DNA of 64,000 nt, from positions 14,932,814-14,996,813 of the forward strand of contig CM068828.1 of assembly GCA_028554795.2 (NCBI GenBank), given 5' to 3'. Positions within the stretch are counted from its first letter, which is position 1; every line of letters begins with the position of its first letter. The stretch comes from Sinohyriopsis cumingii. Lineage: Eukaryota; Mollusca; Bivalvia; Unionida; Unionidae. A model generated the notes under the pieces. It did not search any database. It was given only the letters and a program-made list of their open reading frames with translations, and was not told where the DNA came from. This document shows positions 483 to 64,000 of this stretch, in pieces. Made by a program: the position numbers and the translations under genes.

Positions 483-1226
483 TTATGGGGAGCGAAATGA
501 AGTCGAGGACGGAGACGTGTACAGGACAGGCCCTCCGTCTTGGCACCAGTGGTGAAACAAGTGGGTACGAAATCGCAAATCCTCGGGATTCGTAGGTTTC
601 AAATCGACGAGTAAATAGGCGTGTGGAGTTTGAGTGGCATCGTCGTACGCATGAGTCAGCCAAGGCGTTCCTAACTGTTTGGCTAAGACTTGCACTTGCG
701 ATTTATCTCGAGGGCTTTTAAACAAGACCACGTAATGCGCATTGAGACTGATGGTGCGTTGGGCTTTACTTTGTTGAAACAAATTTTGGGTGATGTAAAC
801 GACACTGGCATTACGGTGATGCCCTTTGCGCGTGAACCACAGTTTAATTTCTTCTTCGTCTTCTCCTAACATGTCGTCGAAAATGACCAAATGGGTTAGA
901 CGGGAGTCAGAGACGATGCCATCGTCTTCTTTAGGAATGCCTTCCACAAACACGACGGAATCGCCTTGACTTTCTCCCAAGAGGCTGTACGCCGATTGCC
1001 ACTCTTTGTAACACCACACGATTCGTTGAGGGGGTCGATCGATCAAATGATGTTTATGTTCGATCAAACGTTTGACGAATTCGGTTTTGCCTGAACCGCT
1101 AGGTCCAGCAATGAGCATGTTAAAGGGATGGCGACGATACAAAGCCTCCCAACTGGCACGATCTAAGTGATCGTCGATGACTTTGACAGTAGAGGAAGAG
1201 GGAGCAGAGACAGCAGAGGTAGCCAT
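483..1226 (-). CDS. Polinton packaging ATPase (FtsK/HerA, A32-like)
   Basis: A genome-packaging ATPase of the kind that pumps DNA into virus capsids. A Walker A motif, GPSGSGKTE, sits at about residues 41-49 and a Walker B motif, THLVIFDDM, at about 111-119 (numbered from the ATG at 1226). The protein is 247 residues, a normal size for Polinton/adintovirus ATPases. An upstream in-frame ATG at 1265 would lie before the expected transcription start, given the TATA box at 1274-1281, so 1226 is preferred. It is transcribed in the same direction as PolB. Partial copies with clear nucleotide similarity occur in element B at 63120-64000. The frame is uninterrupted, so this gene may still be functional. 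Confidence 0.9.
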   Translation of the reverse strand: MATSAVSAPSSSTVKVIDDHLDRASWEALYRRHPFNMLIAGPSGSGKTEFVKRLIEHKHHLIDRPPQRIVWCYKEWQSAYSLLGESQGDSVVFVEGIPKEDDGIVSDSRLTHLVIFDDMLGEDEEEIKLWFTRKGHHRNASVVYITQNLFQQSKAQRTISLNAHYVVLFKSPRDKSQVQVLAKQLGTPWLTHAYDDATQTPHAYLLVDLKPTNPEDLRFRTHLFHHWCQDGGPVLYTSPSSTSFRSP

Positions 1227-1273
1227 GGTGTGAGAAATGTCACTTGTGACACGAAAAACAAACAAGACAAGAG

Positions 1274-1723: not shown

Positions 1724-4700
1724 CTATCGATCTTGCCTAGGGTTCCTTTTTATATACAGACCAATACCGACGTGACCGTACGGTAAGGTGAAGTGATTGG
1801 GAAGTCGCACTCGCTTCTGGTATACAATTTGATAGACTTTTTCCAAGGGTCGACTGACGATGTGGTGAGTGGGTAAACGTACAATCTTGTTCGGTTGATA
1901 GGTGGTCACTTTAAAGTTTCCATCCTCTCCCGATTGCAAGGCTTCTTTCAATACCCCAAAGTTGACCACTCGACTGGTACGATGATTCAGAGTCAGTCCT
2001 TTCACTTTGCACGTCGTGTGCACTTCTCCTTGTTTGTCCCGGTATTCGTAGCCGTAATTTTTGGGACCACCACTGACGAAACTTAGAATCTTGTCGTCGG
2101 GATGCTCGTCTGTCCAGGCTCCTAAACGGTCTCCTTCGATGTCAGGGTGCTGTTGAATCGGGTGATGGATGTAAATGCAACTGTCCGTGTCAAAGTACAG
2201 GACGCGTTCTTCTAACAGTTCTAAAGCTTCGTACAATTTTAAGCGAGCATGAGCTGTCACGTAAGCCGCAATGATGACATTTCCAAAAGGGTCGTCTTGT
2301 ACAAAGTCCAGATCTTCTTCGTAATTGACCAAGATCAAATCCTCTCGAACGACGTCCACGTGTTTCATGTATTTGGTTTTGTCGTGAATCATCTGGAAGT
2401 AGCGGGAAGGTTCTGTCAAATATTCCGTCTTGGGTAAACACGGTCGTTGTGCCATTTTACCCCACAAGCAATTTAACATCACTTTGGCAAACGATCGCCT
2501 GCCTTCGTTTTTTTCGATGTGGTCTAAAGAGATGCCTTCTTGTACATAGTATTTCTCTTTGAATTGTATTTGGTCTTCGGGAGTGTGACACCAGGAAGGA
2601 TAGCCGCTGGCTTCTTGTTTCAGTTTCAAAAAGGCATCCACGTAGTCGGCGAAAATGCCTTTCTGAGTAGGGTCACCCTTGTGGTACTGTTGTGTCTTGG
2701 GAAAGTGGCAAATTTCGTACACTTCTAACAGTTGCTATCCCATGTCCAGAGCTTTGAACAATTCCACGCTGACCCAGGTTCCCGTCAAGGCACGTTCTTC
2801 CTGGCTGTGATGGCAAGGTTGGTCCTGGTTGCACGTTTCGGCACAAATACGGCACAAGGGAAACATCAGTTTGCCTTGACAATGGTGAGGTAAGACGGGA
2901 TGGTATAGGTTCGTGGGAGGCAAAACTTTACACTTGATCAAGCCTTCGTATTGTCGAATGTTTTTCAGGTCGATGTGTTCCGTCAACAATTGTGGGTGCC
3001 CTGTAGGAAAGCGACAATATTTGCACACGTAGGGATACAGCGAACACACGTCCAAGTATTTGATTTCTTCTCCTTTCTCTTCGTCGGCTTGGTACAGCAA
3101 ACAGGTGGCATTGGTCCTTCCTCCGTACAAACTATCCCTCGGGTTCAGCGGGTCCATGAACTGGTAACTTTCCACGAGGCGTTTAAACTCGGGATCGGTT
3201 TTCAAACGGTGATCGTACTCGTGTTTCCACATTTCCACCACTTGGTATCCTTGCTGTTCTAACTTTAGGCGTCGCTGACAAGTGTCCTGGTACAAGTCTT
3301 CCATGGTTCGTTGCAAAAACTGATTTTTAGTGTCACGGTCAGGGTAGCAGACGGGACATCCGTGAAATAAGCAACCGTTAAACTCGTACACGATCTTGGG
3401 GTTTTCTAAGTCCCAGCCATCGACCGAATACGTTCCGATGGTCTTTTCGCCTCCTCCGTTGCGGGCATGCTGAATCCATTTGTCTTCCTTGTCGCACAAG
3501 TAATGTAACCAACGTAGGGCTTTGACCGAGTATTGACGCTTGACATAGTGGGTCGTTTGAGGACTGATGACAGCCACGGTGTTTTCAGGCATGAATCGTT
3601 GGCGGTACACTAAGGAACACGCTTTGGCAATGGTGCAAGCTTCTTTCAAAGGATCGACCCCTCCGTGTTCCATGAACAGTTCTCGAAATTTTCCACAGCA
3701 ACGCCGTAAAATGTCCACGTCGGAACGACAATACTTTAACATTTCTTCCTGAAAGTCGAAAGGGTCAGAGGCATGAGCCTGGTACCAAGCGTAGAAAGCT
3801 TCTCGTTGTTCGGTACGCATGCTGTCGGGATCGTAATAGTGAGCCTCAGGCAAATGGGGTAGAACGGCATGTTGATTGGCTTCCGTATTGAAAAAGTGTG
3901 GAAAGTACCCTTTAGCCATTTCTGTCATTCCAAACGCTTTAGGCATTCGACTCAAAGGCATGGTCAAGTAACTCATCGAATCTTTAAACTGCACTTGTCC
4001 CACTTGCATGAAAATGATTTTGGCTCCGTTCAAAATCACTTTAGGACGTTCGGTGCCATGTTCCGTATAGTACCTCAAAAGAAACTGTCCATCGTATCCG
4101 GAGAAATTGTGAGCCATCACCGTGGCATGACGATGACAATCTCCGTAACGTTCGATGTCCTCTTGGCTCCACGTCTTGTCGATGGGATCTAAGACCCATT
4201 GGGCAAAATCGGCTAACGTGTTTCCGTCCCCCAAAGATTTTTTCACGTCCTCCAGGAATCTTGCTGCAGTGAGGGCAATGACTGAAGATAGGTTCTTGAA
4301 TGCACTTCTCGCACGCTCGATGAGCCACGCAGAAATTAGGAATGTGAATGCCGGTCTCTTGCATGCATTCGAAATCGAAAAAGATGAAATTGCCTTTCTT
4401 CTTGTGACCGTCCTCTTTCTCTGGTGGGGGTTGGTATTTTTACACGTAACATTCGTGTTCCAAGTCCACGATGTGGTGACAAATGTGACATTTTTTCTTT
4501 CCTCGACATACGTGTGCCTTGGCATTGTTGGTACGTATGCCTTGTCTACACGTAGGGCACAATCTCAGGAGTTGACAAGCACATTTCTTCTGTGAACCTT
4601 GTGTTTTCAAATGTTGTTGGTAACAGGTAGGGCTGACAAACGTGCGCAAACAAGTCGAACAAGGCACTGGTTCTTCGCTCAGGCAGGGTGGAGAGGCCAA

Positions 4701-5780
4701 ACATCCTGGGCATTTCCATCCACAATGCTTGTGTTGCTCTCGATTATTATAACCATAGTCACATTTCTCACAGTAATATCTGTATCCCAGGAATCCGGTG
4801 ATACTGGTAATGGTATCGAAATGGTCATCGTGATGATAAACATGAATGTATTTTCCGTCTTGGCCTCGAAACAACAGAGACCCGCGCATTTCTTGAGGGT
4901 GCACTTTCAAGGTGTAGCGTGGAGCTAGGGCATCTTGCAATTTTTGCATCTCAGGATTGTCACAGGGTGTGTCTTTGGACAGGCCAGCTTGTTGCAACAG
5001 GAGTTCTGCTTCGTTTCGTTGTTTGGCTCGATCGGATCGTTGAATAGTGTTCCAGGTTCTTTTCCATTCTGTCGTGTCGTTCTTGTTGGCATAGGTTCGT
5101 CCCACCACGATGGCACGGGCTAAACACATCTGGTCATGAGGATTGTGAATTTGGACAAGACTACGCTTAATGCTGCGAAGCTCGTTCACCAATAACATCT
5201 TTTTGCGTCCTGTCCCTTGAGGAAGAGAGACGTGGGCCATTTTCAGTGTGGCTTTACCATCGGTGATGTCAAACTGGTCATTAGATTGTTGTACGTGTTG
5301 AATCTTGTCCATGATTTTGGAAGGGGTTAGTTCTGCAGGTCTGCTAAACTCGATCCAAACAGGGGATTTCAAACCGTCGTGATCTATGGATAGTGTCAAG
5401 CGATCGTCTTCTTTGGGTTGACATTGTCGCTTGAGTGCGGTGAGCAAAGAATCCCACATCTCGGTGACAAACCCTTCTGCTTTCTCCAAGGGTACGTCGG
5501 CCTTGAAATCTTTAAACTTCACCGTGTAGGTGTAAGCCGTGGTTCTAAATTTTCTAGAGGAGCGCTTTTCCGTCTCTCGAATGGAATAGTATTTTTCAGG
5601 GTTGACTAAGGGTGACGAACTTGGTTTAGAGGTTTCAAATTCTGGTTCACTCATGTCCTCTTCAAAATCACTGGCATGAATTTGTGCCAAGATTTCAGCC
5701 CTGGTACGAGGCGATAGATCACGTTTCTGCCTCTTACTTTCTTCTTCTTCTTTCTTCTCGAATGAATGGGATCGTTTCAT
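1724..5780 (-). pseudogene. Protein-primed family-B DNA polymerase of Polinton A (broken)
   Basis: The Polinton replicative polymerase, about 1350 codons from the ATG at 5780. The N-terminal part (5780-4443) has a nuclear-localisation-like basic start and, near its end, several Cys/His pairs (4480-4780) typical of the Polinton PolB extension. Exonuclease motifs follow: FFDFE at about 4370, HNFSGYD at about 4100 and YCRSD at about 3725. Polymerase motif A (DVCSLYP) lies at about 3045, motif B (NCLWG) at about 2470 and motif C (YFDTDS) at about 2180. Three breaks are visible: an in-frame TAA at 4440-4442, a frameshift between about 4230 and 4275, and an in-frame TAG at 2735-2737. All catalytic motifs remain, which suggests recent inactivation. 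Its TATA box lies at 5827-5834, divergent from the zinc-knuckle gene. Confidence 0.92.
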
Positions 5781-5861: not shown

Positions 5862-5915
5862 GGGTGTGTGTCTTGTCCTTTCACTATTCATTTCACTCTC
5901 AAGCCGAGCACAACG

Positions 5916-6338
5916 ATGGAAGAGACTACCCAGATGGAACGTTTCGTCAGAGCTTTGCGAGGGGTCATTAGAAAATTCTCTTCAGACCAGCCGACGGACT
6001 ACTTTCCTTCCTTTCGAGATAAAAGTCAAGATACTTGCTATATCTGTCAGAAGAAATGGCATTGGTCTTCAGAGTGTCCAGACCGTCAAAAAAGAACAAA
6101 AACAGGGACTAAAAGAGACAAAAGTCAAGATACCTGTTATTATTGTAAAGAAAAAGGACATTGGTCTCCAGATTGCCCAAAAAAGAAACAAGAGGAGTCA
6201 GAAGAAAAGAAGGATTCTTCAGAAGAAGAGAGGGATTCTTCAGAGGAAGAAGAGGAAGAAAGAAGACAATTCTATTTAAAAGAAGCAAGAAACAGGAGAA
6301 GAAAAGAAGAAGGGAAGAAAATGAGGAAAAAACGGTGA
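5916..6338 (+). CDS. Two-zinc-knuckle (CCHC) acidic protein
   Basis: An open frame of 140 residues from the ATG at 5916; an upstream in-frame ATG at 5868 sits only 7 bases after the TATA box and is unlikely to be in the mRNA. Two retroviral-type zinc knuckles with C-x2-C-x4-H-x4-C spacing are visible, CYICQKKWHWSSEC at about residues 41-54 and CYYCKEKGHWSPDC at about 74-87. Each is preceded by DKSQDTCY, so the second arose by tandem duplication of about 33 residues. The C-terminal third is Glu/Ser/Lys-rich and ends basic. Zinc knuckles bind single-stranded nucleic acid, so a nucleic-acid chaperone or RNA-binding role is inferred. It is the only plus-strand gene in this part of the element and is divergent from PolB. 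I do not know it as a standard Polinton gene. Confidence 0.7.
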   Translation: MEETTQMERFVRALRGVIRKFSSDQPTDYFPSFRDKSQDTCYICQKKWHWSSECPDRQKRTKTGTKRDKSQDTCYYCKEKGHWSPDCPKKKQEESEEKKDSSEEERDSSEEEEEERRQFYLKEARNRRRKEEGKKMRKKR

Positions 6339-6612
6339 AGAAATTCAAAAAACAGAGAGACTAAACAAGGAGAAAGAAGAAGTCAATGAACTTTTAATTA
6401 AAGTGTTCTGTGGTGAATTGTGAATTGGATTGTAAAAAAAGTGGATAAAAGAATACATGAATGATATAAGGTAAGTGTCTTTGAGTTTTGATTTTAAAAT
6501 AAGAAGCTACACTCACGCACTCATACACAGACACGTACTATAAGGGTAAAATGGGTGGGGGTTTATTTTTGAGTTATTGACAAATTGAAATTGTATTTCT
6601 TTTCGAGAAATG
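6339..6612. other. Intergenic 3' region between convergent genes
   Basis: AT-rich spacer between the zinc-knuckle stop and the histone-like stem-loop of the opposite gene. An ATTAAA near 6398 could serve as poly(A) signal for the plus-strand gene. Nothing else is seen. Confidence 0.4.
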
Positions 6613-6633
6613 TGGGTGGCCCTGAAAAGGGCC
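6613..6633 (-). terminator. Histone-type 3' stem-loop after the Q-rich gene
   Basis: On the minus strand the sequence reads GGCCCTTTTCAGGGCC followed by ACCCA. This is the consensus of the replication-dependent histone mRNA stem-loop bound by SLBP: a 6-bp stem, a 4-nt TTTC loop and the ACCCA cleavage context. It starts 25 bases after the stop codon at 6659, as in histone genes. A purine-rich stretch (CGAAAAGAAA) follows, in the place of the histone downstream element. The gene it follows is not a histone. Confidence 0.8.
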
Positions 6634-6658
6634 TTTTTATTTTGGTGTAGGGGTGAGT

Positions 6659-7219
6659 TTAACCAATCAACTTTAACTGCCTTAAGCCTTTGCCACGGCC
6701 AAGGCCTACTTCTGATGATTGGGTTGAAATCACTAAGGGTGGTACGACAGGCTTAGTCACAGGGTTGGCGTGTTTAGCTCGGGAAGGTCGTATTCTCTTC
6801 GGTCGTGATAAAGAAGTCTGATACATTTGTTTCAGACTTCTTAACTCCGCTAAAATGTCCAACAGTACCGTAGCCGTTTGATTTTCACCCTCTTGTTTCT
6901 TTGCTGCTACTTCTTCTTGCTGTTGTTGCTGTTGTTTTTTTCTTACCTCTTCTTGTTGCTGTTGCTGTTGCTGTAGGAGAAAAGCTTGTTCCGCTTCCTT
7001 TTGTCGTTGCATAAATTTCTCCAATTCTTCTTTCTGTCTCTGTCTAAAATTCTCCACTTGCGGTAATGAAGAAGGTAACGAAGGTTCCGGAACAAATTCT
7101 TGCGAGGTAAGAAAATCCACAAAATCCCAATGTACCTCTTCTGAAAGTAAGTCCGGGTTCCCTTGGGCAGTCTCCCCTGCTGGTGCACCCCAATGGATCG
7201 TTTTCTGAGTTTCCGTCAT
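6659..7219 (-). CDS. Q-rich coiled-coil protein with histone-like 3' end
   Basis: An intact 186-residue frame from the ATG at 7219 (A at -3). Residues of about 55-115 are Glu/Gln/Lys-rich and likely coiled coil, with two runs of seven glutamines. A helical leucine-rich patch follows (LLDILAELRSL), then a basic cluster (SRPKRIRPSRAKHA) resembling a nuclear-localisation signal. No known domain is recognised. It is divergent from the 7439-7672 ORF across a 219-bp promoter, and its transcript would end at the histone-type stem-loop at 6613-6633. That implies possible non-polyadenylated, S-phase-linked expression (inference). It lies between PolB/zinc knuckle and the element terminus. Confidence 0.7.
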   Translation of the reverse strand: MTETQKTIHWGAPAGETAQGNPDLLSEEVHWDFVDFLTSQEFVPEPSLPSSLPQVENFRQRQKEELEKFMQRQKEAEQAFLLQQQQQQQEEVRKKQQQQQQEEVAAKKQEGENQTATVLLDILAELRSLKQMYQTSLSRPKRIRPSRAKHANPVTKPVVPPLVISTQSSEVGLGRGKGLRQLKLIG

Positions 7220-7438: not shown

Positions 7439-7672
7439 ATGTGGACCGATGTGCAATTTTCTACGCTTGTGTCTTCCATGATGTTCCGGACGGACATGCT
7501 CATGTATGTCCGATCCAAGTGGACCGTTGTCCACAGGACAAACACCAGCCTGTGGATACGTAGGATCTACGTTGAAAGACAAGGATGCCTGAAAAGAGTG
7601 CTGATTTACGGACCAATAGTGAGACGTAGCCTAAGGACAAGAAGAAGACCAATGCGGTACCCTTTATGTTAA
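7439..7672 (+). CDS. Small Arg-rich ORF with histone-like 3' stem-loop
   Basis: A 77-residue frame from an ATG in good context (A at -3), about 45 bases after a TATA box. About 14 of 77 residues are arginine, concentrated at the C-terminus (RRSLRTRRRPMR). No domain is recognised, and it is not a histone. A perfect 12-bp hairpin spans its stop codon, and a degenerate histone-type stem-loop begins 25 bases past the stop, mirroring the opposite gene. A small DNA-binding or packaging protein would fit the composition, but the frame is short and may be a remnant of a longer gene. Confidence 0.45.
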   Translation: MWTDVQFSTLVSSMMFRTDMLMYVRSKWTVVHRTNTSLWIRRIYVERQGCLKRVLIYGPIVRRSLRTRRRPMRYPLC

Positions 7673-7690: not shown

Positions 7691-8014
7691 CCCAAATGCC
7701 CTTTTCAAGGCCAGCCATATTTCTCGAAAAGAGATAGCCTTTCCATTGCCTACCCCTTTTTAAAAAAAAATTTTTAAAAAAAATAATCCCATATTCAATT
7801 CCCCTTTGTCCCTAAACAACCCCCAAACTCTATTCCCCATGTTAAATTCCCCTTGTACGTATATCGGCCCACAATTTTTTCCCATGTTAATTCCCCTTGT
7901 ACGTATATTAACCCACGATTTTTCGCCATGTTAAATTTCCATTGTACGTATATTCGCCCAGGGGTCTCCGTAATGCTAATTTCCATTGTACGTATAGTGG
8001 CCCACTTAACTACT
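7690..8014 (-). repeat. Terminal repeat of element A (right end)
   Basis: Read inward from 8014 it begins AGTAGTTAAGTGGGCCACTA, matching the start of the terminal repeat at 50644. Inside are four to five irregular units around TGTACGTATAT and TTTCCATTGTACG (7845-8000), then an A/T tract (7760-7790) and the stem-loop module. Polinton TIRs typically start with AG. The flank outside is aaaaac; the left target duplication is off-window. Confidence 0.75.
7697..7712 (+). terminator. Degenerate histone-type stem-loop
   Basis: TGCCCTTTTCAAGGCC aligns with the histone stem-loop but has two mismatched stem positions; the TTTC loop is kept. It is followed by AGCCA in place of ACCCA and by a purine-rich CTCGAAAAGAG. 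The flanks match those at 6590-6640 and 51065-51120, so it is a decayed member of the same module. Confidence 0.55.
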
Positions 8015-8075: not shown

Positions 8076-9125
8076 ATTTTTTAAATATAAATATGAATCG
8101 CGTCTCACAACCAAAGATAGTTTCTGGCAAAAAATGATAGATGTTACTTATTTCTTGTTAATGATTGAGGTGATGTATTCAGAGCAAGTACCTCAGATAG
8201 CAGTGACTTAATGAAAACAGCACTAGTTAAATGTATCTTTGACATGAGTTGAAAAGTTGATTATCTCCATTCATTAAAAATATTTAAGTGAAAGTATTCC
8301 ATGTCCGAATATATTAGCTGTTACTCCACATCTCGCTTCGTAAGATTGTAAGGAAGGTCCGAATATAAGACAAAGGTCAGGCTGGGGAAATGGTTATGGG
8401 TCAGTAAATCCACTGGTAGCATCATCGTCCATTTTTCTCTCCGACTATCTCAATATCTTACAATCAAAACGCCTCGTACCATATTAGCCATATGTTCATG
8501 CTCGTCAGTCGCTTTTTACATACCGATTTACCCTTTCAGGATGTGTCTTTTTATATTGTATTGAAGATTTGTTTCGATAGATGGTGGATTGGTGAATTTG
8601 CAATCAATCTCATGGACATAATAGACACGTTTAAGTGCAGATGTCCGTAATAATTACATAGGTCAAGAAGTGTGTATGTATGTACGGATGTATATATGTA
8701 TGGCCTAATAATGGAAAGCGAACGGCATGTGATAATTCTAACACCGGCAATGTAACTTAATTTATGACTGACCCCACACCAAAGAAGTAAACTCCACAAT
8801 AATCTAGTTTGTATACGAACTTTCTGGAGAGATCCAGTACGTCCAGTGTTTATCTGTGTAACTTTTGCTCTAACTGGATGCATGCAAGAAACTCAAAACT
8901 ATAGCGCCACCCATTTAATTGGGTAAAGGTGGAATGCCTGTTCCCCACCCCGTTTTTTGAAAATGAATCAGCAGATTCAAATGAGCCTGTCCGTCCGTCC
9001 GTCCCACTTTCCGCACAGTACTAATGCCCTTGACTTTACTGGGTTTTATTCTGCAATGATTTATATTGCTTGGCAGAAATCGATTAGCCAGAGGTCGAAT
9101 ATCAGTGTTCTAAGACATTGTTTAG

Positions 9126-9555
9126 CAGATTTATAGTTCTAATCGACAAACTCACTAACAGATTTCTAGTCCTGATTGACAAACTCACTAGCAGATTTAT
9201 AGTTCTAATCGACAAACTCACTAACAGATTTCTAGTCCTGATTGACAAACTCACTAACAGATTTATAGTCCTGATTGACAAACTCACTAGCAGATTTATT
9301 GTCCTGATTGACAAACTCACTAACAGATTTATTGTCCTGATTGACAAACTCACTAACAGATTTATTGTCCTGATTGACAAACTCACTAACAGATTTATAG
9401 TCCTGATTGACAAACTCACTAACAGATTTATAGTCCTGATTGACAAACTCACTAACAGATTTATAGTCCTGATTGACAAACTCACTAACAGATTTATAGT
9501 CCTGATTGACAAACTCACTAGCAGATTTATAGTCCTGATTGACAAATTCACTTGC
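9126..9555. repeat. 33-bp minisatellite, about 13 copies
   Basis: The unit is close to AGATTTATAGTCCTGATTGA plus CAAACTCACTAAC. Copies differ at a few positions (ATAG/CTAG/ATTG, AAC/AGC). Because 33 is a multiple of 3 and the unit lacks stops in some frames, both strands show 160-residue frames with an 11-residue repeat, which I treat as artefacts. Confidence 0.9.
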
Positions 9556-12420
9556 GCTTGTTTCTTCACAATAACTCCCTTAAATATCATTGGATTTTAA
9601 CCGAATTTGGTATGCTCGTTCATATTTATAACAGCAGTGGCTTCAAAATCTTTTTCTTTACGATTATGATGTCTTGGAAGCATTTGTATAAATGTTCGTA
9701 CTAGCCAGAGTATCTGCAAAGTTAAGACCCTTCCCCACCCACCCTACCCTATCCCACCCCACCCCACTCCCACCCTCTTCACTTAAAATCACAAAACATA
9801 TAATGAAAGTATTTACTGAAGAGAAAATAACTAAAAATAACATTTAAAAACTATTGATGGATTTCAAAGCATGCACAATTATATTCGCAATTTTCAAGAC
9901 ATAAATCAACAGAAATAAAAGTGACGGGACTGAGGCTGAATTATTTAATGCATTGCCGCTAGGTTGTACATCTTTCGCGAAACCGAAGCAACACTTGGAA
10001 CGTTTAATTTGGTCTAGAAAGTTTGGCTGCTCCGGAGGTGTGATTTGGTCTGGTCTGGTCTGGTCTGTAATATACAAAAATGAACATATATATGTACAAA
10101 AAGTGGTTAAATGGTCGAAAATAAATTACTTTTTAAAAGTGATCTGTAGCTGCTGAAGCATACGTGTGCTAAGGGGATTGGATACACTTTCTAAATATAC
10201 TAAGCATAAATAATGGCGTCAAACGAAACAAACATGCGCAAACAAACAGCAGGAAAGCGTTTTATACATAATTTAGTGTACTGTGTGAAAGGTTGATTTC
10301 ATAGGACGAGGTTAAGTGCCTTACCTTAAGACACATCGAGGCAGCCGACCCAGTTTGGCCTGTGCCTTTTTGAAACTGCTTATGATACTATATGTTTACA
10401 TGAAATATATATTATGTAATTTTAGCCAGTACCGTATATTGCCTCGATGAAGATCATTGCTTTTTCTGCTCCTCTAAAACACAACAATTATCGCATTTTA
10501 ATGTCTCAGGTAAGTCTGGCAAAGAATTTTTCTAACTTATGATTCAGGTAGCAGACCTTATATGATACAAGACAGGAATAAAGGGGGTACCACACTTGAA
10601 TGACATATTTTCAGTTAGATACCCGGACTTTACTCTTTACTAGTGCCTACTGTATACCAGAGAACAATTGTTGAAACTAGTGACCTCGATGCACTTCCAT
10701 TGGTAGTTCGTTCAAAGCTTGTCTATATGATTTTTAAATTGAGATGAACATATTTCAAGAAGCTACCATCTAACTTAGGTATAACATGTTCCACAAATGT
10801 ATGACTCCTGATCTGCTCCGAATAACACGGATTGAAAATGTATTTATTCTTTAACCCTTTACCTCAAAGCCTCTGATACTGTGCAGGCTTCCGTATAAAT
10901 GTGACAAAATCACAGAGTGCAATGTGTTATGAACAGAACATATGTAGGCTAAATGATTAAGGCAATGTAGTATGCTAAGTGCAACATAAATTTAACCATT
11001 TTACTTTATTTGTGCATATTTGTTCTCTATAGATAGGTTTAAAAGAAGAATCTGATTTTTATGACTGCATCATTTGTTTTAACCAAAGAATATTTTATAG
11101 TTTTTCTTTATAATTAATGCATCAAATCAGTGAAGCTGTGTGACTGTGTTAATGACCTTTCACAACCTCTGAATCTGCCGTTTCATTGTCTACGAATATG
11201 TCCCTAAACCATTCGAATTTGATAAATTGTCAAACTGGGTATTGCCTACACAGATATCAGAAGCCTTTAATGTCATAATCCTAATCAACAGAGCCCAGGA
11301 GAGTGCTGAACAAAGTCAGAGCGCCCCCACCCCCACCCCCACCTACCCCCATTTTGGAATATGGAGAATCTGATCCAGTTCTTTGAAATAGTACTATAAA
11401 TAGCAACCTCGCTATGTGACATCATTGCCATGTTGTCAATAACTATGACACTCGGAACTACCTCGGCTATTTCTCTCATACGATACAATTTATTGGTATA
11501 TTTGTCGACACAGTTATTTCCAGATAAGGAGCCAAACAACTGGTTCCCTGGATAATTCTTCGCACAAAAGTAGATCCAGTTTATTCGGATCAGCTCCTCT
11601 ATTTCTATTATTGTATTGGCAATTAGAATGACTGATAGGTTACGAATAAAAAAAAATAAAGTTCATTCATTCATGGCCTCTCTGTCAACCCTTGTTTCGT
11701 ACATAACCGAAGTGATCCGAATGACAGCTATCTGCACATATTCGAAGTTAGAACAGTAGGATGTATTCCGATAAATCCACCCCACAATGCTGTTTACGGT
11801 AGTCGTCGTAACGTGATTCTACGCGTCGAAATGCGATTCCACAGCAATTAGGTAGAGGTGTCCAGCAAAAGACAACTGCACCAATATATTTTACTCTAGT
11901 AATAAATGTTAAAGTCAATCAACGCTTTTAGTGTTGGAAAAAATGGAATTCTTACTACTCTGTTATGCGTGCTGATTTCACACGATGTCATCTTTACTTG
12001 ACCCAGTTTACCCCCGGGATGCCATGTTCAATCAAGACCAATAATTTCGAGTGCTTGATTTTCTTTTACTTTATGTTTTTGTTGAGGGAGGATATGACAG
12101 ATAAAGTGGAGAGCATTGAACAATGAGCAAATGCACATACATGTCATTTTCACTTTACATAAAATGCACGAAGATTTTATCTTTTAGAAGAATTTGTAAT
12201 TCGAAACCATGCAGCGATTGTTTTACGAACTCGTCAAGGCAATATTTGAAGGTTATCTTTTAGAACTTGTAATTATCCACAGCGTTGATGATATTGAAAC
12301 TATACATTTTTTACACTGAATAAATGTGTAAATGATTTTATAAAATCAGGAGGCATTTTATAAAAATGTCTAGTATGGTCCAAATTATGTAAAGTTTCCA
12401 TATCCCTTCACTCCAGCACG

Positions 12421-14586: not shown

Positions 14587-15123
14587 GACCAAGTCTAAGC
14601 CTGGTCAAGTGATCACCTGACTCTTGATGAATCAAACCTGAGCATGGCCAAATTCATCACTTGGCATAAAATGGCCGAAGTCATCGCATGCAACTGATAG
14701 ATTGTCAGAGATATGATAAACCTGGTTTCATATTCCATTTCTGTGAAAATTAATTCTTCTGAATGTAGCGGCCTCTGTCCAGATTCTTCACCTAACACTT
14801 GACGAGGTATGAGAGATGCACGAAAGCAGGCTTCAGGGAATTATAGATTTGTTACTAGATCCGATAAAATGCTTCTAAATCCGATATACATTTTTTTGTT
14901 TCAAGTAAATATTGGATACAATGCACGACAATGTAAATATGACTGCAGTGAAATTTTATGATATTATTGTGCAACTGTGGTGATAGGTTTTATGTTAGTG
15001 TATTCAGTGCAGAGACGAAAGAGCACGAAATAAAAAATCAAACAGCCATTCATGTTTTTATTACTGTTTATTACATTCTCAAAAGCAAATACTTATTGTT
15101 GTGCACGCCATATTGTCAGAATC

Positions 15124-15368
15124 ATTAACAAAATGTACTTAAAGCTATTACAATCATTGTAACACACATTAACAAAATGTACTTAAAGCCATTACAATCA
15201 TTGTAACACACATTAACAAAATGTACTTAAAGCCATTACAATCATTGTAACACACATTAACAAAATGTACTTAAAGATATTACAATCATTGTAACACACA
15301 TTAACAAAATGTACTTAAAGCTATTACAATCATTGTAACACACATTAACAAAATCTACTTAAAGATCT
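15124..15368. repeat. 44-bp tandem repeat with internal palindrome
   Basis: Five to six copies of a 44-bp unit beginning ATTAACAAAATGTACTTAAA. Each unit contains TTACAATCATTGTAA, a 7-bp inverted repeat around one base, so the array is a string of regularly spaced small hairpins. Confidence 0.88.
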
Positions 15369-15802
15369 TACATTTATGAAAGCAGGCTAAAACTTTCCAG
15401 AAACATCACATGTATCGAAAGAGACAGAACGAGTCGCGCTGTGATTGTATATTTCATGTCACATATAAAAATAAATGAAAGTTTTTTTTGTGGATATTAT
15501 AATTGGTGCGTACCATGTTCTTTCCTCAACAAAATATGGTCCTGTAATATTACTATCGAGGTCATTGTTTTCTTCAGGTTACTTTGTTTAAGCAGCAGGA
15601 GGGGATTGACCGACCGCCCCCCCCAAAAAAAAAAAATGGCGGCCGACAATATTTTTTTTACCCATTAATAAACCCTACATTGTGGAATCAGACGCTAGTA
15701 TCAACAAGAAACAAGTAGATCTCGTCTTTTTTATATGCGTCGCGGGTTCCCCTAATTATAATAGCATCTGTCGCAAACGCTTGCAATATGTCTACCTCGT
15801 TT

Positions 15803-23857: not shown

Positions 23858-23968
23858 AACTAGCTAACTAGTAGCTGCCTCGCTCGGCACTCAGCATTAG
23901 GAGGTTAGTGTTAGAACTGGTCGGCCTGGTGTAAGTATAATGCAACTGGGTGGGACATCATGCTACAT
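23858..23968 (+). repeat. SINE family 1, body fragment
   Basis: TAGCTGCCTCGCTCGGCACT and the following 80 bases match, in opposite orientation, the body of the SINE at 40398-40646. The tRNA-like head is missing here. Confidence 0.75.
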
Positions 23969-23977
23969 GTTTCCTCT

Positions 23978-24535
23978 AGACGACTATATTGTATAATAAC
24001 ACAGCTATCATAAGATACTATATTGTATAATAACACAGCCATCATAAGATACTATATTGTATAATAACACAGCCATCATAAAATAATATATTGTATAATA
24101 ACACAGCCATCATAAGATACTATATTGTATAATAACACTGCCATCATAAGAGACTATATTGTATAATAACACAGCCATCATAAGAGACTATATTGTATAT
24201 TAACACAGCCATCAGAAGAAACTATATTGTATAATAACACAGCCATCATAAGAGACTATATTGTATAATAATAACACAGCCATCATAAGATACTATATTG
24301 TATAATAACACAACCATCATAAGAGACTATGTTGTATAATAACACAGCCATCATAACAGACTATATTGTATATTAACACAGCCATCATAAGAGACTATAG
24401 TGTATAATAACACAGTCATCATAAGAGACTATAGTGTATAATAACACAGCCATCATAAGAGACTATATTGTATAATAACACAGCCATCATAAGATACTAT
24501 ATTGTATAATAACACAGCCATCATAAGATATACAT
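23978..24535. repeat. 34-bp tandem array, about 16 copies
   Basis: The unit is ACTATATTGTATAATAACAC plus AGCCATCATAAGAT with single-base variants. It begins directly at the 3' end of the SINE fragment, suggesting expansion from its flank. Confidence 0.9.
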
Positions 24536-25084
24536 TACATATCTTAAAAATGAAAATCTTGAAACACTAATGTGTCAACTTTGTAAGAACGAATCAATTA
24601 TTCCGCTCCAATTCTTACTTATTCCTGAGGCAAAAATCATCAACAAGCTCAACTGCTTTCATTGTCCGTCCTATTTTCATCTTTTTTCCTTCTTTTACAG
24701 CATCTGTAAACGCAGTATTCCACACATATTACGAAGCTGGCTACCACTAGACCTTAGAAAAGAGATTAGGCAGTAGAGCATTTGCATTAATGACATATTG
24801 ATGATGTTTTTATAGAAGATAAGCTATATTACGAACTGAATTAGTCGTTTCCATGATTTATCAATACATATATATTTCATAATTTTATAAGACCTTCACA
24901 ATCATCATGAAGGAAATTTACTTTTTGTTATGATAATTATTTATGACAAAAGGGATCAGACATTGGTATGTACATAACAATGTAATTTACTTGTGGATAA
25001 TTTTCTTTTTAACCGTATGTGTCGTATTTTATGCTAATAATTGTCACGATCATAAAAATCTGACAAATAATCTACCTATGCAAC
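24536..25084. other. AT-rich spacer between two arrays
   Basis: Nothing supportable as a gene. It should contain or precede the intron into which the receptor's last visible exon leads, but no exon with a fourth membrane segment was found here. Confidence 0.4.
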
Positions 25085-26400
25085 AGATGTATGAGTCAGT
25101 CTGAACATTAAACAATTTACCTGTACAACAGAGGTATAAGTCACTCAGAACATCAAACAATTTACGTGTACAACAAAATTAGAAGACGCACTACACATCA
25201 AACAGTGTACCTGTACAATAGTGGTAGAAGGCAATCTGCACATATAACAATTTACCTATACAATAGAGGTAGAAGGCACTGTGCACATATAACAATTTAC
25301 CTATACACCAGAGGCAGAACGCACTCAGCACATATAACAATTTACCTATACAACAGAGGTAGAAGGCACTGTGCACATATAACAATTTAACTATACAATA
25401 GAGGTAGAAAGCACTCTGCACATCAAAATACGTACCAGTACAACAAAGGTAGAAGACGCACTACACATTAAAGAATGTACCTATACAACAGAGGTAGAAG
25501 GCACTCTGCACATATAACAATGTACCTATACAACAGAGGTAGAAGGCACTCTGCATATAACAATGTACCTATACAACAGAGGTAGAAGGCACTCTGCATA
25601 TAACAATGTACCTATACAACAGAGGCAGAACGCACTCAGCACATATAACAATTTACCTATACAACAGAGGTAGAAGGCACTGTGCACATATAACAATTTA
25701 ACTATACAATAGAGGTAGAAAGCACTCTGCACATCAAAATACGTACCAGTACAACAAAGGTAGAAGACGCACTACACATTAAAGAATGTACCTATACAAC
25801 AGAGGTAGAAGGCACTCTGCATATAACAATGTACCTATACAACAGAGGCAGAACGCACTCAGCACATATAACAGTTTACCTATACAACAGAGGTAGAAGG
25901 CACTGTGCACATATAACAATTTAACTATACAATAGAGGTAGAAAGCACTCTGCACATCAAAATACGTACCAGTACAACAAAGGTAGAAGACGCACTACAC
26001 ATTAAAGAATGTACCTATACAACAGAGGTAGAAGGCACTCTGCATATAACAATGTACCTATACAACAGAGGTAGAAGGCACTCTGCACATATAACAATGT
26101 ACCTATACAACAGAGGTAGAAGGCACTCTGCATATAACAATGTACCTATACAACAGAGGTAGAAGGCACTCTGCACATATAACAATGTACCTATACAACA
26201 GAGGTAGAAGGCACTCTGCACATATAACAATGTACCTATACAACAGAGGTAGAAGGCACTCTGCATATAACAATGTACCTATACAACAGAGGTAGAAGGC
26301 ACTCTGCACATATAACAATGTACCTATACAACAGAGGTAGAAGGCACTCTGCACATATAACAGTTTACCTATACAACAGAGGTAGAAGGCACTCTGCACA
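25085..26400 (-). repeat. Exon-derived 45-bp minisatellite, 30 units
   Basis: Thirty tandem units of 45 bp, with a 43-bp variant lacking CA. On the minus strand each unit reads GTG CAG AGT GCC TTC TAC CTC TGT TGT ATA G then GTACAT or GTAAAT. The first part is identical to the 3' end of receptor exon 26369-26520 and the second to its 5' splice site and the start of the intron. The array begins seamlessly at that exon. A five-unit higher-order block recurs around 25306, 25619 and 25844. Confidence 0.9.
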
Positions 26401-26520
26401 TCGATAATCTTGATTGGCTTTGCACTAGTTTGTGTCTCTTGTCCATCACATTCGCTGGCTTTAGACCACCACTTCTTCTGCCAGACGAGCAGCAAACCAG
26501 ATTCATCAATTTGGATGATT
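26369..26520 (-). CDS. Receptor exon, end of S2 into M4; source of minisatellite
   Basis: Acceptor GCATGAAG, donor GTAAAC at 26368. Encodes IIQIDESGLLLVWQKKWW, then SECDGQ and IIDVQSAFYLCCIG, the start of M4. Its last 31 bases and the donor are repeated in the adjacent 30-unit array. Confidence 0.8.
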
Positions 26521-29500
26521 CTTCATGCAATAAAACACAGAGATAGCATTAAGAACCAAGTAACTAATGCAAAGCAAACGGAATCCAAATAAATACTAAC
26601 ACTGAGAAAAATCTTTATAACTTTCATAATGGCTGGAAATAGTTATAAGACCTATTAAAAGTAAAATCCAGTTTTAAAAATTGTGTTTGTACACTCTTTC
26701 TTGCTCTTTAACATCCAACATATGGTAAATTTTGTCAGAAAACGGAACATGTCATTTCGCTACATAACAATTTGCAATTGCATCACATTTTCTAACATTT
26801 TAAATTCTCTCTCTCTCTCTCTCTCTCTCTCCAATGTGTTGTTGAGGTTGTTAAATATGCAAAGTGGTATGTCGAATAAATATCAGAACTCGGCGTATTG
26901 AATAAACAATGGAATGTACATTTAAGGAACACTTAATGGGCAGACTCAAACGTAATAGATATTAATATAAATTGCACTTGATAATGTGTTCGTTGAAGGT
27001 TATTGTATATAAAATCATCTGTACTTTAGGGCTGGTTTTACGGAAGCAACTTTAAAATGTCTCCAGAAGTTAAAACTGTAACTTTTTTAAGCTTCTTACA
27101 AACCTATTGTACAAGAAATTTGCTATTTATATATTTAAAATATAACGGTCATTTTATTTGAGCTACCTTTTGTGGAAAGCTGGAAAGGAATGGGATACAA
27201 ACTTCAAACATTAAGTATGTTAAAACTTTGATTTGAAAAATCATCGCAAGTTAAACCCGTATGACTTTGATTAATCAGTAGAGTTACTTACTTGTCAGAA
27301 AACAACTTTGTATATGGTGAATTGTTCGGGAGACCAACTGCGTTTCGAATAGGATGGAAATCTTTGATTTTGGCCAGTTCACAGTTCTCTGCCACCATGG
27401 CGTCAATGCCAGACTTGTCCCCAATCCAGGCATAGTTCCCACCAATAACTTTAGCAATATGTACACTGAGAACTGGTGAGAGTACGCTCGGATCCGTTGA
27501 ATTGAATTCCACTAATCCGGCCTGTACTTTCTTAAATTCTGGATTCACAGAGTCCTGAAAAGAAAGCAAAGAAAATGCAGTACGTGTATACAGTGACGAA
27601 ATTTTTTCAGGGTGGATTGATTCTCGGACAGTATATACATACAATGACGACAATTATAGACTGGTTCTCTGGCAATATGTACATACAATGACAAAAATCG
27701 TGTGTTGTGTATATCTAATTTGCATGATTTGTTATTTTTTATTATTTTATTTTTAATATATGCAATAGATAAGTGTATTTTGGACTTGACCTTGTCCAAA
27801 AATCAAGTTCATTTTCTACCTGACCTGAATTGTTGATTTTTTTAAATTCTGTACACAACTAACACACAGCTAAAATATTCTTTATCCATATGGGTTAACT
27901 ATTGAGATTATTATTTTTGCCGGAGTCAAGGACGTTGAGCTTATCATGTTCTGTATTATAATTATTTCACCTAGTAAACATTAGGGACTTTCTCAAAGGT
28001 TATTGACAATTGGCTAACAGGTTGATATGTGTGTTTAATCCTAATTGTGACCTGAGGTCAGGTAAAGGACTATATAATCTTGTTTTTCTAGCAATTATTC
28101 ATTCGTACTTTAAGATCTTAGCAGAATCAGTTGTATTATTGTTATGTCCAGAGGTTCATTTGAGCTAGAATTTTATTTATTTAAATTATGTATTCACAGG
28201 AAATACAAAATGCTCATAAAATAGCATTCTTGGAAATAAAAACTTGAACTTTTAGTAAAATTTCAAATCAGGATATATTCGTGGAATGTATTATTGTAAT
28301 CCAACAAAAGACTGTTGGCACATCTCCACTACACAGGAAACCACAGGAACATCAACATTTCCATCTTTAGACTTAATTTGAGTGTATTCAAAATTTTAAT
28401 CATTAGGACATGTGTATGTAAGTCTATTATTATTTGGAAAATTTATTCGCAATACCGTAAGTTCCTTTTTAACATTTTCTCAGTTTATTATAGAGAAATA
28501 AATAATTTGTTGATAAAAGCTTTTTACACAAAGGTTGTTGCATTTCTATTACTTGTGTTATGACCATAGGGTCGTAGTACATGTCGTGATGGATTTATTC
28601 TCAGGCAGTATGCGCATACAATAAAGAGAGTCACATATTGATTCTCAATGAGTATGGACATACAATGATGAAAAGTATGTCACGAAGGATTGATTCTCAG
28701 GCAGTATATACACATAATGACGAAAAGCGTGTCGTGATGGATTCATTCTTATGCAATATGGGCATAGAATGAGGAAAATCGTAAATTGATTCTTAGGTGG
28801 TATGTGCACGAAACTCAAGTCTCGACGGATTGATTCTCAGTTAGCGTATGTATAGAATGAAGAAAATCATGTCATGATGGATTGATTCTCAGTTAGTGTA
28901 TGTATAGAATGAAGAAAATCATGTCTCGACGGATTGATTCTCAGTTAGTGTATGTATAGAATGAAGAAAATCATGTCTCGACGGATTGATTCTCAGTTAG
29001 TGTATGTATAGAAGGAAGAAAATCATGTCTCGACGGATTGATTCTCAGTTAGTGTAAGTATAGAATGAAGAAAATCATGTCTCGACGGATTGATTCTCAG
29101 TCAGTGTATGTATAGAATGAAGAAAGTCATGTCATGATGGATTCTTTCTTTATATACTTTGTCTACTGCGATTGAATTTCGCAATAAACCCCACGTGATA
29201 GAATAAACTACTGGTTTTGCACCAAACTTGCCAAATAATGTGACATAGCCCAGCCAATGGATAGTTACTGAATCCTCCTAGAAACATCGAACCCCATCAG
29301 CCAACACAAAATTAAGCCATAGGCGCCATTTAAGTCTTATTACTAAGATTATTATTAATAATTGTCAACATACACGTAAGCATTTGTAGAGTCAATGCAA
29401 TATTATGCTTTTAAGAGATTCGGCTAACGTAGGCAAAATTAATTAAAGATATCATGTACAGTTTACAGACATGAATAAAAATTATAATGAATAAAAATTA

Positions 29501-50643: not shown

Positions 50644-51120
50644 AGTAGTATAGTGGGATACTATACGGTCAATGGAAAATCCATTCAAAAAGGTCGTAGA
50701 GCGATATACGGACGAGATGTATACGGACAATGGAAATCTCAGTCAAAAACACCTTGGGGCAATATACGGACAATGGAAATTGAACATGGGGAATATTGGG
50801 ACTATATAAGGACAAAGGAAAGTGGAGTTGTTGTATAGGGACTCTAGCATTAGAACAGGTGAGGTGATGTCACGGTACTGGATATTGGTAACAATGTAGC
50901 AAGGGGCTGAGCTCAATTGGACCAAAGAGCGGGAAAAACCTAGAACGCTTGGCTTGGTGGGACTAGCGGGATATAAACATATAATTACATACAACATACA
51001 TACAGACATAGATGGATGAACATTAATCTATCACACAAAAGATATACAACCGACTGAAAAAATTAGACAAGAAAGCAAATCTTTTCGAGGCATATGTGTG
51101 GCCCTGAAAAGAGCCTTTGG
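50644..51120 (+). repeat. Terminal repeat of element B (left end)
   Basis: The outer 35 bases match the inverted terminus at 8014 at 29 positions. Inside are four irregular repeats of TATACGGACAATGGAAAT (50660-50825), as in element A, and then the histone-type stem-loop module at 51065-51120. The stretch 50850-51040 is unique to this copy. Confidence 0.78.
51100..51115 (-). terminator. Histone-type 3' stem-loop after the 51-kb gene
   Basis: Minus strand GGCTCTTTTCAGGGCC: a full 6-bp stem with one G-T pair and the TTTC loop, preceded by AACCCAAA and followed by ACACA and a CTCGAAAAGA purine stretch. It starts 19 bases after the TGA at 51135-51137. Confidence 0.75.
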
Positions 51121-55735: not shown

Positions 55736-55739
55736 ATTG

Positions 55740-56900
55740 ACTATATTTAGTTCTTTGATTGATAAGTATGTTTGAGGAAATTTTCGCTTGATTTAGTATT
55801 ATTGGTGAGCATAGATGAAATGACGCTTAGCGAGTCACTTATTATTACTGCTTTATGTATCTGGTAATCTTTAATCCACCGGAGGGCTTCCAAGATGGCC
55901 CTGAATTCAGCTGTGTAGATATAGCAGTGGTCAGGTAGTCTGTTTCCCATTTTAATGTTCAATACCGGGATTGCTACTGCTGCTGCTGTTCTGGGGGCTC
56001 TGATATTTTGGACCCATCAGCGTATATTTTAACCAAATTAGGATATTTAGCCATAGTTTCCATTTTCATAATTGTTTTTAGCTTCAGCTTTTGTTCATTT
56101 TTGTTGCTGTGTTTTGTTATTAGTGTGTTAATTGATGGTTTTGTGTTAGTCCATGGCGATGTGTCACATTTATTAGTTATATCGGCCTGGTAATTAGCTA
56201 TTGGTAGTCGTCCAGTTAATTGGTGGATGTGTTTTCCTGCAGGGATGTTTGGTACTAATTTGTTACTGAATGATTTGTTGCATTTATTGATGGCTATACT
56301 GATGGGATGTCTATTAGGGTGGGTTGTTATTCTAGCTGAATATCTTAGTTGCAGTGGTAGTTCTCCAGTTAGAATTTGGAGCTCAGCTAGGGATACTGAC
56401 GGCAGAGTGCCGCTTTGGATAATTGACGCTTTTATTTGAATCGTATCTAATTTTTAAAGGTGTTGTTGTGGTGCCGAGTTATACATTTGACACCCGTAAT
56501 CCAATATTGACCTTATTAATGCTATGTATAGTGTTAATAGTGTTTCTTGATTGGATCCCCATGAGGTCCCTTAAAGGCTTTTCAGTAAGTTTAGGTCTTT
56601 ATCGCAGAAACTTACTACATTTTTTATGTGATGACCCCAATTAAACTATCTTGGATTTCACTGATTACTTTGCGACTTGCGGGGTTTCCTGATCTCCAAA
56701 GTCCACTGTCGTCAGCAAATTGAGACATTTCAATTCGGTTTGAAGTTAGGATTTGATCTAGGTCATTTATCATGACGTTAAAGAGTGTGGGTCTGAGTAC
56801 GTGCCCTTGCGGAGTAACGTTTTCTAGTGAGCATATTTCAGAGCAAGTGTCTCCAACTCTATATATTATTTTGCGGAGTAACGTTTTCTAGTGAGCATAT
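55740..56900 (-). pseudogene. LINE copy 2 (RT end and RNase H, broken)
   Basis: At 56680-56880 reverse-transcriptase coding with PTLFNVMINDLDQI and the catalytic FADD box. At 56400-56600 the post-RT region again. At 55747-55962 an RNase H domain with YTAEFRAILEALRWI and AVIISDSLSVISSM. Presence of RNase H places the family among I/Jockey-like LINEs. The RT 3' portion duplicates that of copy 1, so these are two head-to-tail fragments. Confidence 0.7.
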
Positions 56901-62292: not shown

Positions 62293-63080
62293 TCAGTAAA
62301 CTCTGTAACATGCCCGATCTCTCTTGGACTTTGATTTTGGGGAGGATACTTTGTGATCAGCTGCCACTGCAGCTAAAGAGGATGAGGGCGTCACCGCTGG
62401 GGAAGAAGATCTCGGAGATATGGCTTTCCATTGTTTCATAATATGAGGAAGAACGGGTGTCAAATTGGGTTTGGCAGGCAGCACCAACAACGGAGAAGTG
62501 GAAGAACCATAGCTGCAGGTCGTGGTTTGCGAATGTAAGGTTGTATACTTACTGAAGTGCCTCTCTTGCGGGTAGAAACTGTTTTCTGTGGGCTTTTCTT
62601 TTTCTGGGGACTTTTCGTTTTCTTTTTCTGTGGGTTTTCCTTTTTCTGGTGCTGTGACCTGGTCTTGACACCGTTTCTCTTTTTCATCTTTGGGTTCGTA
62701 TGGCTTTTTTGGGAGTGACTTTTTTCTGGGAGAACTTTTGGGGGCATTGTGATCCCATTTGAATAGGGAGCAAATGATGACACCTCCTAGAGAACCGCTA
62801 CCTCCAGGTTTCAAAATGATTTGCTTTTTGGTTTGAGTATCGATGCGGAAATCGGCCAGTTGCGTCAAGCTGCTTTGTTTCTGTCACAAACGCGTTTGGT
62901 TTGATGAGGAATGTGAATGATGCCTTCCAGTAATTGACGTGCTGTCACCATAAACCATTGTAAAACTTCTTTGAAAATGGCTTCTTAGACACGAACACAC
63001 ATTTGTGGATATTTTTCGCGACTGAAGCTGTACAAGGCACGAATAAATTTGACGGGAAGATGAGACTGAAGGAACGTCAT
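62293..63080 (-). pseudogene. Gene X of element B, broken
   Basis: Homologue of the partial gene at 1-427. The start (ATG at 63080, MTFLQSHLPVKFIRALYSFS) stops at 62985, and the middle is shifted. From 62868 the frame is open again, with the glycine motif ILKPGGSGSLGGVI and a long Lys/Pro/Glu-rich basic tail containing repeated EKxKPTEK-type segments. Function unknown. Confidence 0.6.
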
Positions 63081-63580
63081 GTTGACGCTGTGTGAGATAG
63101 ACCCAAAATGACTTTTTGTTAAGTCGACGACGGGGACGTGTACACGACAGCCCCCACCCCCACCCCCGTCTTGGCACCAGTAATGAAACAGATGCGTCCG
63201 AAATCGCAAATAATCGGGAGTAGTGGGTTTTAAATCCACGAGTATATAGGCGTTTGGGGTTTGAGTGGCATCGTCGTACGCATGAGTCAGCCAAGGGGTT
63301 CCTAACTGTTTGGCTAAGACTTGCACTTGCGATTTATCTTTATGACTTTTAAACAAGACCACGTAATGTGTATTGAGACTGATGGTCCGATGGGCTTTAC
63401 TTCGTTGAAACAAATTTTGGGCGATGTAAATGACACTGGCATTACGATGATGTCCTTTGCGCGTAAACCACAGTTTAATTTCTTCTTCGTCTTCTCTTAA
63501 TATGTCGTCGAAGATGCCCAGATGGGTTTGACTGGGGTCAGACAAGATCCCGTCGTCTTCGCCAGGAATGCCTTACACAA
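63081..63580 (-). pseudogene. ATPase C-terminal part, duplicated copy 1
   Basis: Matches the ATPase of element A from the Walker B region (IFDDILREDEEEIKLWF) to near the C-terminus. The stop is lost, and after a Gly run caused by a C-rich tract the frame reads on into the start of gene X in frame. It is truncated at 63580 in the middle of the protein, where the next copy begins. Confidence 0.75.
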
Positions 63581-64000
63581 ATGTTGACGCTGTGTGAGAC
63601 AGACCCAAAATGACTTTTTGTTAAGTCGACGACGGGGGCGTGTACACGACAGCACCCCCCCCCCCTCGTCTTGGCACCAGTAATGAAACAGATGCGTCCG
63701 AAATCACAAATAATCGGGAGTAGTGGGTTTTAAATCCACGAGTATATAGGCGTTTGGGGTTTGAGTGGCATCGTCGTACGCATGAGTCAGCCAAGGGGTC
63801 CTAACTGTTTGGCTAAGAGTTGCACTTGCGATTTATCTCGAGGGCTTTTAAACAAGACCACGTAATGTGTATTGAGACTGATGGTGCGATGGGCTTTACT
63901 TCGTTGAAACAAATTTTGGATGATGTAAATGACACTGGCATTACGATGATGTCCTTTGCGCGTAAACTACAGTTTAATTTCTTCTTCGTCTTCTAACATG
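63581..64000 (-). pseudogene. ATPase, duplicated copy 2 (runs off window)
   Basis: A direct repeat of the preceding segment, offset 502 bases, with few differences. Frame-breaking changes are a different C-run (63649-63665), a one-base loss near 63798 and a small deletion near 63993. The rest of the ATPase should lie beyond the window. Confidence 0.75.

Follow-up and report, generated by a model that had tools for sequence, protein, structure and literature searches.

To our knowledge, the histone-type RNA hairpin has been thought to be reserved, among animal genes, for those that encode histones. Histone mRNAs of a bivalve (Lucina) are reported to carry such a stem-loop near the stop codon (PMC6210712), and in a cnidarian it is the combination of hairpin and downstream element by which histone genes of S phase are distinguished (PMC5011920). 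The window analysed here, a single stretch of 64,000 nucleotides from Sinohyriopsis cumingii, contains hairpins that resemble these replication-dependent histone 3′ ends (Rfam RF00032) in hairpin sequence, in their AAA and ACCCA flanks, in their short distance from the stop codon, in the purine-rich element that follows them and in the shortness of the genes to which they belong. Unlike replication-dependent histone genes, however, the genes in question are part of a dispersed mobile element whose loci lack any core-histone match, and some of their hairpins have an A-U outer pair. The element itself is most similar to Polinton/Maverick (adintovirus-like) elements, with which it shares a viral family-B DNA polymerase, a packaging-type ATPase and terminal motifs common to both kinds of end. 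We propose, with a probability of roughly 0.85, that at least five genes of this Polinton group carry a complete replication-dependent histone mRNA 3′ signal, which would be used via host SLBP and U7 to yield S-phase-coupled mRNAs that end in no poly(A) tail.

The Q-rich stem-loop and its counterparts in the window

The initial annotation placed a consensus histone stem-loop at 6613..6633, 25 bases past the stop of a non-histone, Q-rich gene and followed by a purine-rich stretch. Direct reading of the window bears this out: the minus strand from 6636 to 6613 reads AAA-GGCCCTTTTCAGGGCC-ACCCA (full unit, AAAGGCCCTTTTCAGGGCCACCCA), and positions 6613-6633 are exactly the 21 nt that run from GGCC to ACCCA on that strand. 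In a cmscan search of the whole window this hairpin scored 41.2 bits against RF00032 (Histone3; E 9.6e-9, model span 6594-6638 (-)), the gathering score of the model being 34. The stop codon of the Q-rich ORF, TAA, occupies 6661-6659, and the count from stop to stem is indeed 25 bases, or 22 when the AAA flank is reckoned as part of the hairpin unit; the purine-rich stretch 3′ of the hairpin is CATTTCTCGAAAAGAAATA. Pfam assigns no histone to the Q-rich protein, in agreement with its earlier description as non-histone, nor to b77, g51 and their relatives. The C-terminus of the Q-rich protein (6659-6710 (-)), GLGRGKGLRQLK, resembles the GRGK start of histone H4/H2A tails, a likeness that is short and may be due to chance.

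A direct consensus scan of the window yields four hairpins in total, that of the Q-rich gene and three beyond the one first annotated, at 7694-7717 (+), 51118-51095 (-) and 52192-52169 (-) (Table 1). The same scan placed no hairpin at the ATPase, polymerase and zinc-knuckle genes of the window. By blastn, the hairpins at 6636, 7694 and 51118 match one another, and the one at 52192 matches the 6636 and 7694 copies; the 52192 (-) hairpin is absent from the Rfam list. For the g51 hairpin the RF00032 model spans 51076-51120 (-), and the stop that precedes it is that of the second g51 frame, which the C-terminus of the g51 homologues P0023-P0026 resembles. A structure model of g51 is helical (pLDDT 76.5) and gave no structural match at E 0.001 in a viral structure library; the model of b77 is poor (pLDDT 49.3).

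Polinton identity is supported by the sequence matches of the polymerase and the ATPase (Table 1) and by shared termini. Element A extends from beyond the window start to ~8014, with its genes in the order Pox_A32-type ATPase, family-B polymerase, zinc-knuckle ORF and Q-rich, then the divergent b77. Its end at 8014 and the end of element B at 50644 correspond in a 44-nt block around the hairpin (84%), in repeats near the terminus (73-79%) and in the last 35 nt (83%), which end in ACTACT. Within the 900 nt searched, a terminal motif ending in CTACT occurs at 3 of 23 b77-side loci, at 7 of 16 g51-side loci and at both element ends in the window, and beyond this motif the flanks are unrelated between copies. 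Pieced together from separate loci, the sequences fit an arrangement in which the b77-side and g51-side ends would belong to a single type of element, inverted with respect to each other. Hairpin-bearing genes stand at both of these ends, Q-rich and b77 at one and g51/g51-like, X2 and X1 at the other. To speak of "a Polinton gene" is thus an understatement, since a whole set of terminal genes is involved.

In P0020, a database protein of 112 aa, the start of the Q-rich protein is fused to part of the N-terminal region of the polymerase, which provides a further link between the Q-rich gene and the polymerase of the element. The ATPase region near the end of the window perhaps represents the rest of element B; it is partly duplicated, ~500 bp apart, over 63079-63961 (repeats D7, D11). 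A Pfam scan of three ORFs at 58.4-61.7 kb gave no integrase- or capsid-type match. Between the end genes of the second element and the genes at 58-64 kb, the sequence at 53200-56500 (-) looks by eye like what is left of a non-LTR retrotransposon, reverse transcriptase included. Minisatellite arrays with units of ~33-52 bp occupy 9057-9651, 15068-15419, 23891-24630, 25108-26447, 28618-29173 and 32645-33023, and an ORF at 31016-31435 (-) resembles, by eye, part of an ionotropic glutamate receptor, which points to an animal host.

Table 1. Genes, stem-loops, downstream elements and termini located in the window.
Positions	Strand	Feature	Basis
483..1265	-	Packaging-type ATPase, element A; no stem-loop found	Pox_A32 1.5e-7; consensus scan
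1724..5780	-	pPolB, element A, several ORFs; no stem-loop found	DNA_pol_B_2 4.8e-6 (1724-2722); consensus scan
5868..6338	+	Zinc-knuckle (CCHC) ORF, convergent with Q-rich; no stem-loop found	zf-CCHC 1.7e-10; consensus scan
6598..6607	-	Putative histone downstream element CTCGAAAAGA of Q-rich gene	AAAAGA starts 14 nt past stem
6613..6636	-	Histone-type stem-loop of Q-rich gene	AAA-GGCCCU-UUUC-AGGGCC-ACCCA; 24/24 consensus match
6659..7219	-	Q-rich gene, 186 aa, conserved, no assigned function	20 homologues, alignment
7439..7672	+	b77, small basic protein gene, 77 aa, divergent from Q-rich	2 database homologues, 75-77% identity; many genomic copies
7694..7717	+	Decayed stem-loop of b77	21/24 consensus, 4/6 pairs; RF00032 only 14.4 bits
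7723..7732	+	Putative downstream element CTCGAAAAGA of b77	Direct scan
7980..8014	+	Right terminus of element A (...CCCACTTAACTACT)	Homology to 50678-50644 end; motif ends other copies too
50644..50678	-	Terminus of element B (...CCCACTATACTACT)	Homology to element A end; other copies
51080..51089	-	Putative downstream element CTCGAAAAGA of g51	Direct scan
51095..51118	-	Stem-loop of g51, 16 nt past stop	RF00032 32.9 bits, E 1.3e-5, slightly under gathering score
51135..51663	-	g51 gene, broken by frame change; family ~190 aa	4 homologues P0023-P0026
52169..52192	-	X1/X2-type stem-loop, AGCCC/GGGCU outer pair, one stem mismatch	19/24 consensus, 5/6 pairs
62720..63961	-	ATPase region, second element	Repeats D7-D9, 63-90% to stretches at 66-831

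Gene families with the hairpin in the genome and in database relatives

A search of the assembly (2.9 Gb, 1138 contigs) with RF00032 reduced 589,472 first-look candidates to 75 that were scored, all 75 of which exceeded the cut-off and were scattered across many contigs; one of 14 control genomes gave a match, below the cut-off. We read 54 of the 75 matches (8 returned with the search, 40 fetched and 6 that were short and low-scoring), and every one of the 54 adjoins genes of the same Polinton group. No core-histone match was present at any of the 54 inspected loci, and H2A, H2B, H3 and H4 were without a match in 48 loci. Gene calls in the first 48 loci, from which the read-through parts of P0013 and P0022 were excluded, place the selected hairpin after b77 at 23 loci, after Q-rich at 9 and after a g51-side gene at 16. 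Seven of the g51-side loci are matched to g51 by tblastn. Of the remaining nine, seven carry, directly before the hairpin, an E/K-rich ORF whose C-terminus is similar. At the other two (L030 and L047) this C-terminal stretch is found only in broken frames, with X-type hairpins upstream. The six low-scoring matches follow b77 (3), g51/g51-like (2, one of them recognized from its C-terminus alone) and Q-rich (1).

Among gene ends that retain an intact C-terminal tag and 150 nt of downstream sequence, most of them at loci originally found via one such hairpin, the hairpin unit lies 12-57 nt past the stop in 103 of 103, distributed over five families. The distance is 16-22 nt for b77 (32/32 ends), 16-24 nt for Q-rich (32/32), 12-57 nt for g51/g51-like (13/13), 22-33 nt for X2 (15/15) and 23-36 nt for X1 (11/11). 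X2 and X1 lie upstream of g51 in tandem, and each has a hairpin of its own.

A further ORF of ~160 aa, X0, is located upstream of X1 at the same element end (L031:533-1012, L023:459-926, L050:4392-4871) and represents a natural negative control. None of its three ends has a hairpin, and there is no AATAAA within 200 nt in any of the three.

Since the loci were found through a hairpin, a gene that was not used for selection affords a fairer test. Among such non-ascertained copies, 23 of the 24 Q-rich genes and all 11 b77 genes are followed by the hairpin, in elements that may be young, having been picked for one good hairpin. All 11 of the b77 copies score at least 20/24 against the consensus, and in six of them the flank is AGCCA in place of ACCCA. 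Lack of stem-loop conservation in related elements had been named at the outset as a result that would count against the proposal; what we find is conservation in at least five gene families genome-wide and in two database relatives.

These relatives come from public sequence sets, where contigs of 523-2286 bases contain 20 homologues of Q-rich and two of b77. Two of these proteins, P0013 and P0022, continue beyond the usual stop, and the residues added there are compatible with the hairpin and the downstream element at 36 of 39 positions in each, with scores of 40.4 and 41.0 (next protein, 6.8). This read-through indicates that the signal follows both genes, Q-rich and b77, in relatives from other samples. 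In wider collections, the pattern GGYYCTTTTCAGRRCCAC occurs in three stretches of IMG/VR, none with a Rfam Histone3 match at E 1, and the pattern GGCYCTTTTCAGRGCCACHC in three bacterial stretches of GTDB contigs (257 billion bases); the matches in both sit in phage-like or bacterial contigs. The hairpin-plus-element pattern had 0 matches in IMG/VR, that collection likewise yielded no confirmed relative when scanned with the ATPase, polymerase or Q-rich alignment, and a search by way of the ATPase gave none in a phage collection.

Conservation of the unit and alternative explanations

Our analysis demonstrates the sequence, position, spacing and conservation of the unit, together with an A-U/G-C exchange at its outer pair. 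In the 48 loci, AAAAGA occurs within 24 nt past the hairpin in 109 of 114 cases, and in 103 of 114 its start falls precisely 14 nt from the stem, as against 1 of 114 for a control stretch further downstream. Among non-ascertained copies, leaving out the Q-rich copy of L033 (which has no hairpin), conservation of the 16-nt hairpin is 0.96 for Q-rich and 0.99 for b77, compared with 0.87 and 0.85 for the spacer before it and 0.69 and 0.64 beyond the downstream element; when the AAA and ACCCA flanks are included with the hairpin, the value is 0.94 for both genes. Pairing was assessed over 33 distinct rows, drawn from the four window copies and a single representative of each of the 30 distinct 24-mers rather than from all 114 hairpins. 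The outermost pair is A-U in 14 rows, G-C in 12, G-U in 1 and unpaired in 6, whereas 30 of the 33 rows have G-C as their second pair. The covariation score of 0.151 exceeds all 500 shuffles, with partners slid by +1 giving 0.147, and two of five covariation measures, the double-change pair count and the pair-type count, do not exceed shuffles. Because covariation is confined to one pair, it may reflect a single change between gene groups.

Several explanations other than use of the histone 3′ pathway have to be weighed. The first is that ordinary cleavage and polyadenylation dominates at these genes and that the hairpin, whether bound by SLBP or merely situated in the 3′ UTR, marks an alternative or backup end, which we consider unlikely. 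Polyadenylation of the Q-rich gene is possible, since an AATAAA at 6636-6641 (-) overlaps the 5′ flank of its hairpin, with a second at 6567, and 14 of the 32 Q-rich ends have the motif within 200 nt past the stop; human histone genes with an overlapping poly(A) signal and downstream element have also been described (PMC9756948). Over the same distance, however, only 3 of 32 b77, 1 of 13 g51, 2 of 15 X2 and 2 of 11 X1 ends have an AATAAA, and the fixed spacing at which the downstream element is kept likewise argues against this reading.

Also conceivable, though in our estimation improbable, is some other role for the hairpin at the DNA or RNA level, for example in transcription termination, in replication or packaging, or as a decoy for SLBP. 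Hairpins do occur near both kinds of element end, as such roles might predict, but the Q-rich hairpin lies 1.4 kb inside the terminus and is oriented inward. The conserved unpaired AAA, UUUC loop and ACCCA of the hairpins, and their strand-correct placement past each stop, fit SLBP-type signals instead. A histone 3′ end that was captured once, has since been copied passively with the elements and is now functionless would account for the multicopy, related nature of the elements and for the decayed copy at 7694, and the discovery of copies through the hairpin itself would favor such a picture. We nevertheless regard passive copying as highly improbable, as genes with no visible similarity to one another carry the hairpin at matching distances from the stop, non-ascertained copies preserve the hairpin and AAAAGA better than the sequence on either flank, and in the outer pair both partners change from one gene group to another. 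A chance inverted repeat, which the shortness of the motif might invite, has a negligible likelihood and is refuted by conservation in non-ascertained copies and at tagged gene ends, in line with the three matches found in each of two large virus and prokaryote collections and with a simulation in which none of 60 windows generated under a first-order Markov model attained a 19/24 match, versus four matches in the real window, loops being limited to the same five 4-mers in both.

Proposed mechanism and its implications

A histone-type hairpin on element genes would probably mean tail-less, S-phase-timed messages. By analogy with histone pre-mRNAs, host SLBP would bind the hairpin and the U7 snRNP would read the AAAAGA element, whereupon the pre-mRNA would be cut after ACCCA and left without poly(A). 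The resulting mRNAs would be made and remain stable mainly in S phase, a time at which host DNA synthesis would suit replication of the element. We compared the downstream elements with the 5′ end of human U7, and for two of them pairing did not surpass the random level: 1706 of 4000 random windows paired as well as the element of the 6636 hairpin and 1763 of 4000 as well as that of 51118, and pairing of the remaining two was modest (386 and 456 random windows as good). We do not count this weak result in favor of the proposal. A search of the genome with RF00066 gave no U7 match and is uninformative, the control genomes likewise having given none.

Judged by titles and abstracts among the matches listed, we found no account of histone-type mRNA ends in Polintons. 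In literature of the same scope, to which subscription journals and preprints could add, nothing was found that joins Polintons with histone mRNA, the histone stem-loop with a transposable element, or the histone stem-loop with terms for viruses, non-histone genes and SLBP.

It appears likely that a virus-like element has placed at least five non-histone genes under the host histone 3′ pathway. The transcripts would then be the first non-histone mRNAs of animals to end in this way, they would be tied to S phase, and they could compete for SLBP and U7.

If our proposal is correct, a mobile element with the signal on at least five genes breaks the rule that this type of mRNA end belongs to histones only, and reveals a way in which a DNA virus may couple its genes to host replication. 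Such transcripts would be missed by RNA libraries prepared by poly(A) selection. The hairpins of the element, including the A-U variant, constitute a natural non-histone set with which the requirements of SLBP and U7 can be probed.
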